From assembly GCA_016783545.1 (NCBI GenBank), contig JADHWJ010000003.1:36174-100173 (forward strand): a DNA stretch of 64,000 nt, read 5' to 3'. Below are positions 62,390-64,000 of this stretch, in pieces. The notes under the pieces were generated by a model. It did no database searches. It was given only the letters and a program-made list of their open reading frames with translations, and had not been told where the DNA came from. Numbering within the stretch: the first letter of the stretch is position 1; every line of letters starts with the position of its first letter. Both the position numbers and the translations under genes were made by a program. This DNA is from Candidatus Aenigmatarchaeota archaeon (GTDB taxonomy: Archaea; Aenigmatarchaeota; Aenigmatarchaeia; QMZP01).

Positions 62390-62683
62390 ATGTCCAGAGT
62401 GCCAAGTAAAGAGAAATTAAGAAAATTGGGGGCAGAAGCTACTAGAATTCTTGAAGATGAATTAAGAAGAGCTGGTATTAAATATGATTATGCTGAAGCA
62501 ATTGTTTATGATAAAAGAACAGTTGGTGTGCAGGGTGATGAGAGAACCTGGGTTCATGTTGCAGAAGTAGAAGTGAAAGATAACGGAAAACATATATATG
62601 ACACTGATTTTCTAGGAGATCTTAGCACAAGATTAACAAATGAAATGAGAGATGTTAACAGAGTTGTTTATGCTCTTATTTAA
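62390..62683 (+). CDS. Stand-alone GMP-synthase C-terminal (dimerisation) domain-like protein
   Basis: VGVQGDERTWVHVAEVEV...DFLGDLSTRLTNEMRDVNRVVYAL resembles GuaA C-terminus. Confidence 0.75.
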   Translation: MSRVPSKEKLRKLGAEATRILEDELRRAGIKYDYAEAIVYDKRTVGVQGDERTWVHVAEVEVKDNGKHIYDTDFLGDLSTRLTNEMRDVNRVVYALI

Positions 62684-62709: not shown

Positions 62710-62772
62710 GACCGCCATTGCACTTAACATCGAAGTTATGATTAGTTTCTGCCTTTAAACAAAGCGGCGGCC
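62710..62772 (+). repeat. Repeat copy A: GACCGCCATTGCACTTAACATCG + GTTATG + AGCGGCGGCC
   Basis: 22/23 identity with 63666-63688; inverted match with 63295-63380. Confidence 0.65.
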
Positions 62773-62802
62773 GATTTATTAATCCGTAATACAAATTTTA
62801 TT

Positions 62803-63057
62803 ATGGCTTACAGAGTCATAGTCTCACCAACTGCGGAGAAAGACCTGAAAAAATTTAACATTGAACTGCAAAGAAGATTTTTCAAGAAAATAAAGAAACT
62901 TAAAGATTATCCAGATATTTATGGCAAACCGCTTAGATGGCCACTGACGGGAAGATGGGAACTAAGATTTGAAAAACGATGGAGAATCATCTATATTATC
63001 GATGAATCAATCAAACAAGTAAAAATAGTTTCCATCCTACACAAGGATGATTTCTAA
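62803..63057 (+). CDS. RelE/ParE-family toxin
   Basis: YRVIVSPTAEKDLKKF...GRWELRFEKRWRIIYIID...VKIVSILHKDDF. Confidence 0.8.
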   Translation: MAYRVIVSPTAEKDLKKFNIELQRRFFKKIKKLKDYPDIYGKPLRWPLTGRWELRFEKRWRIIYIIDESIKQVKIVSILHKDDF

Positions 63058-63248
63058 ATTCCAAACTCTTTTTTAACAGTTTCCAGTGATTTTCCTTTGC
63101 CCTCAGCCAATTCCTTTTCTCCCTGCATAATTTTCTTCATAGCCTTAGGGCTGGATAGAATATCAATTGTAGACTTCATGCTTTCATATTCATCAAGGGA
63201 TATAGTAACCCATTGAGTTTTATGTTCACCGTGCATTAACTTTTGCAT
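63054..63248 (-). CDS. Phd/RelB-like antitoxin, convergent with toxin
   Basis: VTISLDEYESMKSTIDILSSPKAMKKIMQGEKELAEGKGKSLETVKKEFGI. Confidence 0.65.
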   Translation of the reverse strand: MQKLMHGEHKTQWVTISLDEYESMKSTIDILSSPKAMKKIMQGEKELAEGKGKSLETVKKEFGI

Positions 63249-63294
63249 GTTTTCACCAATAAATAATTGTATTGAGTTTATAAATGCTTTAAGA

Positions 63295-63380
63295 GGCCGC
63301 CGCTCCCTAGTAAGGCTGAAATTAGGACGCAACGAGCGGTTTACTCAGCGAGTGAAGTGTCATAACTTTTTGTTAAGTCC
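63295..63380 (-). repeat. Repeat copy B (inverted relative to A)
   Basis: Reverse complement carries GGACTTAACAAAAAGTTATG and AGCGGCGGCC. Confidence 0.6.
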
Positions 63381-63402
63381 AGCCGCTCATCAAACAATAA
63401 AA

Positions 63403-63627
63403 TCAAGAATGCGGCGTAGTGGTGGTCGGAGGATTACAGAATGAATCAAAAGCTTCTTCAACAAGTTCCAAGGCATAACCAGTTATTTTTCTTCCATTGA
63501 CAAGAAAATCTTCACTATCAGTACCTAATTTAACTGTTACTGATTTTCCTCTATATTCTGCTGGGATTCTTTCATCATCTGGGAAAGTAATATCAGATTC
63601 CCAACTCATTGCATATTGTTTACCCAT
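63403..63627 (-). CDS. Small uncharacterised protein (74 aa)
   Basis: MGKQYAMSWESDITFPDDERIPAEYRGKSVTVKLG... Confidence 0.5.
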   Translation of the reverse strand: MGKQYAMSWESDITFPDDERIPAEYRGKSVTVKLGTDSEDFLVNGRKITGYALELVEEAFDSFCNPPTTTTPHS

Positions 63628-63665
63628 AATAGCAATTATCTGTTAAATTTATAAATACATAAACC

Positions 63666-63856
63666 GACCGCCATTGGACTTAACATCGGGCTTAAAAGAA
63701 GTTTTGATTTCCCTCGTGAGCAAATTTTTCTCTCGAAAATTACGGCAACCCAAATTTTCAGAGCTAGGAAAATTTGCGATAGAGCTGGAAATCAAAATTT
63801 GGGGAAATTGGAGTGCTGAGGCTCCGATTTCCCTTTTAAGCCCTGTTATACGAATC
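63666..63856 (+). repeat. Repeat copy C with nested inverted repeats (attC-like hairpin)
   Basis: GGGCTTAAAAG 63688-63698 / CTTTTAAGCCC 63833-63843; TTTTGATTTCC 63702-63712 / GGAAATCAAAA 63787-63797; flanked by ACTTAAC and GTTATAC. Confidence 0.6.
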
Positions 63857-64000
63857 CGACGGAATGAACGAAGTTCATGGAGGAGGACTCGAAGGTGAGC
63901 GAGGAAAATTTTACAGCTGTAAAATTTTCACTCCTGCGAACCATCGAGGTATGACGCAGAAAGAAAAAGCCCGATAAATTTATATATGACTGCGACCATG

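Follow-up and report, generated by a model that had tools for sequence, protein, structure and literature searches.

Organization of the locus

The window, the whole 64,000-nucleotide stretch analysed from a Candidatus Aenigmatarchaeota archaeon, ends in a short array of small modules bounded by recombination-type boxes (Table 1). Its last base is also the end of the contig (C13:100173), and the array runs off the contig. In the first complete module the toxin-like and antitoxin-like open reading frames (ORFs) (62803-63260) converge, with their ends overlapping, which is not the usual operon order. The ORF of the second module is directed away from the predicted attI side, like most cassettes of this type. 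Just outside junction A, a 97-amino-acid ORF (62390-62683, plus strand) matches the C-terminal domain alone of GMP synthase (PF00958) and, from this match, may be a stand-alone fragment or a split subunit.

Table 1. Features at the end of the window and the recombinase gene on contig C11 of the same genome
Feature	Position	Strand	Evidence
Junction A (copy A), ACTTAAC-ATCGAA-GTTATGA, without hairpin	62722..62741	+	No significant model match (10.4 bits, E 0.85)
Gene cassette A-B, 632 bp	62735..63366	.	Ends GTTATGATT / TGTCATAAC complementary 7/9
ParE/RelE-like toxin ORF, cassette A-B	62803..63057	+	Pfam PF05016, E 2e-8
Phd/YefM-like antitoxin ORF, cassette A-B	63054..63260	-	NF008499 E 3e-6, PF02604 E 2e-4, both below cut-off
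Junction B, TCATAAC-TTTTT-GTTAAGT, inverted, without hairpin	63360..63378	-	No model match
Gene cassette B-C, 313 bp	63372..63684	-	Ends GTTAAGTCC / GGACTTAAC complementary 9/9
Cassette B-C ORF, 74 aa	63403..63627	-	No family match
attC-like hairpin site (copy C)	63672..63857	+	Models R1, R2; covariation; DNA fold
Next cassette start (GTTATACGA...), truncated at contig end	63845..64000	.	Sequence
Tyrosine recombinase, 300 aa	C11 900-1802	-	Best family archaeal XerA (NF040815)

The array was noticed through a 23-base motif, GACCGCCATTGSACTTAACATCG, present at 62710-62732 and 63666-63688. The initial annotation gave the two copies as 22/23 identical, and one base of the 23 indeed differs. The 886-kb genome holds just these two copies, even when three mismatches are allowed over a 19-base core, and the flank of junction A (62710-62721) carries the cassette-end motif in common with copy C. 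From its small size and its kinship to other genomes, this genome is probably of a DPANN lineage. Copy C continues from the motif in the order ACTTAAC (63678-63684), ATC, GGGCTTAAAAG (63688-63698), CTTTTAAGCCC (63833-63843), T and GTTATAC (63845-63851), the last being part of the far box GTTATACGA at 63845-63853. The two inner segments pair as an 11-bp outer stem, and the conserved motifs GAAG and TTTGG are located at a three-way junction. With DNA parameters the predicted fold has an energy of -47 kcal/mol, in agreement with the hairpin proposed in the initial annotation. As in attC sites, boxes of the R type (RYYYAAC/GTTRRRY) flank an imperfect hairpin. The R' box of copy C is GTTAAGT when read away from attI, and the other box, GTATAAC (GTTATAC), is one base off the attC consensus.

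Copy A had been paired with copy C as a second attC-like hairpin, and here the initial annotation was mistaken: the R-type boxes of copy A are separated by just 6 nt and enclose no hairpin. Such hairpin-less junctions are A, B and one on contig C14; these would be decayed sites that have lost their hairpin, though they may instead serve as double-stranded, dif-like sites. Across the array loci, hairpin-less junction cores are not enriched (46 vs 41 in shuffles).

The hairpin site as a family across archaea

Similar hairpins were first collected from relatives by a DNA search and from recombinase loci by scanning for stems. In an alignment of 15 sites, compensatory change was seen in 16 of the 26 pairs, and attC-like sites were found with model R1 in 93 of 392 archaeal genomes. 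In addition, 62 sites from 20 further loci gave 336 doubly changed cells vs 106 +- 9 in shuffled data and at most 55 when the pairing partners were slid, a count biased toward the structure by the fitting of the 62-site alignment to the model. A covariance model, R2, was made from the 62 sites of other genomes only, with no sequence from the archaeon's own genome. Its match in the window covers exactly 63672-63857 (64.6 bits, E 5.2e-11, with 279 kb of the own genome searched), so that the site scores significantly in a model independent of it. Two further sites of the own genome are matched by R2, on contigs C11 and C14. Additional copies at cassette-like spacing, named as a check in the initial annotation, occur here and in the 93 archaeal genomes.

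The hairpin matches no family in an Rfam search, and the rarity of G-T pairs in the variable helices favours DNA folding rather than RNA folding. When the recombinase of contig C11 was searched against contigs, the matches were to Bacteroidota only, and the loci of these are without a site bar one weak match (E 0.12). The best match of R2 in 21 Bacteroidota genomes is just 35 bits. A weak site-like hairpin (35 bits) with a GAAGTT motif is located at the start of a Bacteroidota contig (G410:C96:109-214, locus L183). In one single-contig archaeal genome (G319:C1), at least six attC-like sites are dispersed singly round the chromosome, with one more adjoining its recombinase gene (locus L179).

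Cassette structure

In 14 of 16 multi-site loci all sites are on one strand. Thirty-five cassettes contain an ORF of at least 180 nt, and in 28 of them the longest is directed away from the attI/recombinase end, so that the hairpin follows the gene. As with the gene cassettes of integrons, most units consist of one gene plus a site, repeated in tandem on the same strand. The cassettes are also privately tagged at their ends. Among the 33 of 37 cassettes with intact GTT/AAC ends, the first nine bases (GTTN6) agree with the complement of the last nine in 20, no more than one of the six variable bases being mismatched; the highest agreement in 20,000 shuffles was 10. This end complementarity ceases at base 10. 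The cargo includes DNA methylases, GmrSD, AbiEii, hydrolases and transporters.

Some cassettes of the archaeon's own genome have complementary ends well past the 9-bp box, in contrast to relatives, where the match generally stops at base 10: 62743-62772 of the window is complementary (inverted) to 63295-63324, and in locus L014 the same is true of 341-355 with 822-836 and of 401-411 with 799-809. In another locus (L162 7039-7648) a 194-bp cassette adjoining a recombinase gene is present as a tandem duplicate, 96% identical.

Cassette exchange

Two lineages that are apart at class level or higher (G089 and G359) share a methyltransferase cassette with 88.7% identity over 754 bp, and the similarity ends at the boxes. 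Its AAC end has an attC partner in G089 and an attI-like partner by a recombinase gene in G359. Genomes of different families (G005 and G099) have a TauE cassette in common, with about 80% identity over 1500 bp in an alignment that spans the cassette plus its flanking sites. In the own genome, an identical 139-nt cassette end stands in two contexts, beside a hairpin on C11 and beside an attI-like sequence on C1.

The sequence on C1 (L036 5811-5862), at the end of that contig, is a second attI-like sequence, near-identical to that of C11 and directly 3' of the radA stop codon. The two copies may reflect two arrays or strain variants. The radA gene itself (L036 4800-5400) is apparently interrupted by an intein-like insert.

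Recombinase and attI-like sequences

From its start, contig C11 carries a cassette, an attC-like site, a second cassette (438-797), an attI-like sequence with two copies of the repeat ACTTCCGATAATAC, and the gene of a tyrosine recombinase. An integrase in the genome had been named as a check on the integron proposal: a tyrosine recombinase gene does adjoin such a site, and the domain specific to IntI is absent from its product. The protein scores 220 bits against the archaeal XerA family (NF040815), exactly on the cut-off of 220, and falls below the cut-off of the integron integrase family. Its best solved relative is XerA of P. abyssi (4a8e, E 5e-46), and in the comparison with IntI4 (2a3v) a gap of 40 residues coincides with the IntI-specific domain. 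The corresponding part of IntI1 (about residues 199-229) is missing from all 29 archaeal XerA-type recombinases in the comparison; for 21 of these, a site was located in the stretch that holds the gene. None of the 392 archaeal genomes, 234 of which are at least 90% complete, passes the cut-off for an integron integrase (TIGR02249), and the best matches break at the missing domain. A strict integron has an IntI with this domain, and the array is therefore not an integron by that definition.

In 8 of the 17 genomes that were not used for the model, a recombinase gene is located within 7 kb of a site, where 0.6 would be expected. At genome level, the co-occurrence of recombinase and site is marginal after removal of the model-source genomes (p 0.08), and the case therefore depends on the physical closeness of gene and site and on the exchange of cassettes. 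The recombinase is patchy in distribution; at E 1e-40 it is present in 25 of 145 genomes. Its gene occupies the attI end in an arrangement conserved in several clades. In most clades it is the 5' end that points toward the array, and in the clade of C11 (L014, L088, L089) the 3' end. A conserved attI-like sequence occupies the attI position in the L102-L106 clade, and in nearly all loci read the first cassette at the attI-like site starts with GTTN6AAT. By sequence these sites resemble an attI that lies by a recombinase gene and receives cassettes, given the conserved attI-like site and the cassette joined to attI in one genome and to attC in another. A recombinase tree including IntI1 has many weak forks and gives IntI1 no firm place, and no relative of the L104 recombinase was detected in the viral contigs searched. 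On contig C7 (L015 4768-6457), two tyrosine recombinase genes are overlapping in tandem, the second with a long unrelated N-terminal part.

Interpretation and alternative explanations

Copy C is very probably an attC-type recombination site in an integron-like array worked by a XerA-type recombinase. In the proposed mechanism, a tyrosine recombinase of this type would join cassettes, free or borne on arrays, at the attI by its gene and at attC hairpins. A cut next to GTT would leave a matching 9-bp box at both cassette ends and the hairpin behind the gene. The position of the nearby XerA-type gene suggests that its product is the joining enzyme, and the substrate would be the folded single strand, as in bacterial integrons. 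What can be read from the DNA is a folded site, privately tagged cassettes, one-strand arrays, attI-like sites, adjoining recombinase genes and cassettes common to distant genomes. Judged on these features the array would be integron-like in behaviour, though outside the strict IntI definition; of the integron attC site originally proposed, the attC-like site of a cassette array stands and strict integron membership does not. None of the three outcomes named in the initial annotation as refuting it was obtained. Several points count against the integron reading: the recombinase is without the domain that reads the folded strand in bacterial IntI, single sites are scattered far from any such recombinase gene in some genomes (G319), junctions A and B of the window are hairpin-less, and the window array and the recombinase contig C11 are not joined in the assembly.

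The arrays could be remnants of canonical archaeal integrons, that is, attC clusters without IntI in which an ordinary IntI with its extra domain, located elsewhere or lost, moves the cassettes and the XerA-type gene is a passenger. Most archaeal integrons in the literature are clusters of this sort, the six IntI among them being described with the IntI domain (PMC9668308), and the present genome is just 70% complete. Against this, no archaeal genome surveyed exceeds the integron-integrase cut-off, and XerA-type genes hold the attI end in several clades, which makes the remnant explanation unlikely. Xer/dif modules of the pdif kind, toxin-antitoxin modules that have double-stranded dif-type cores of alternating orientation on either side and are moved by the cell's XerA, are a still weaker candidate. 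Junctions A and B do consist of inverted boxes with 5-6 bp spacers in alternating orientation, they bracket a toxin-antitoxin-like pair, and the recombinase is XerA-type. However, a 28-bp double-stranded dif-type site at every boundary, alternating, is what this explanation calls for, and just A, B and the C14 junction come near it; elsewhere most junctions are the conserved folded site on one strand per array, hairpin-less cores show no enrichment, and the recombinase is patchy, unlike a housekeeping XerA.

An origin of the hairpins as mobile inverted repeats of the MITE/REP kind, or as structured RNA elements standing between genes by chance, is scarcely credible. The palindromes are strong and single copies are scattered in some genomes, as such elements would be, but the cassette-specific end tags, the attI-like partners and exchange with ends at the boxes are at odds with this origin, and so are the missing Rfam match and the few G-T pairs in the helices.

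Implications

Escudero et al. 2020 placed the origin of single-strand attC recombination by a Xer-like enzyme in the gain of the I2 helix in IntI (PMC7790495). The chances are about even that small-genome archaea host an integron branch of their own, in which folded attC hairpins are recombined by a Xer-type enzyme that never gained the I2 helix or lost it. If true, the arrays would be natural examples of the proposed pre-integrase stage or an independent solution of the same problem. The I2-gain step would be open to test with real enzymes in a natural system that has cassettes and attC-like hairpins and is without the I2 helix. In addition, the clusters of attC known from archaea and described as 'lacking an integrase' may own a recombinase that was overlooked because searches require the IntI domain. 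The system would also be a widespread route of gene exchange in DPANN-like archaea, with cassettes that cross families and classes. In the open-access part of the literature no paper was found on archaeal arrays with recombinases that are without the IntI-specific domain, which is not proof of novelty.

Comparison with known systems

Like bacterial integrons (intI/attI/attC), the archaeal arrays have a recombinase gene, an adjacent attI-like site and single-gene cassettes with a hairpin after the gene, and they share cassette-specific complementary R boxes starting with GTT and same-strand arrays. They differ in the recombinase, which is without the IntI-specific domain, in an R box of 9 bp and in a three-way junction that is conserved together with the motifs GAAG and TTTGG; the archaeal site model has no match in two class 1 integron stretches. 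The pdif modules are Xer-driven cassettes of bacterial plasmids, with inverted recombinase boxes, a Xer-type enzyme and toxin-antitoxin cargo. The archaeal arrays resemble them in all three respects, and differ in having hairpin sites on one strand and an attI by a dedicated recombinase gene. Archaeal XerA (NF040815, 4a8e) provides both the best family and the best solved relative of the recombinase; unlike XerA, the universal chromosome-dimer resolvase, the enzyme is patchy and is encoded beside cassette arrays.

Ghaly et al. 2022 described integrons in 75 archaeal metagenome-assembled genomes, mostly attC clusters without IntI, and six archaeal IntI with the IntI-specific domain (PMC9668308). 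The recombinases by the present arrays are without this domain. By description, both sets are attC-like arrays in archaeal metagenome-assembled genomes, including DPANN, mostly without a recognised IntI, and both carry toxin-antitoxin and restriction genes as cassette cargo.
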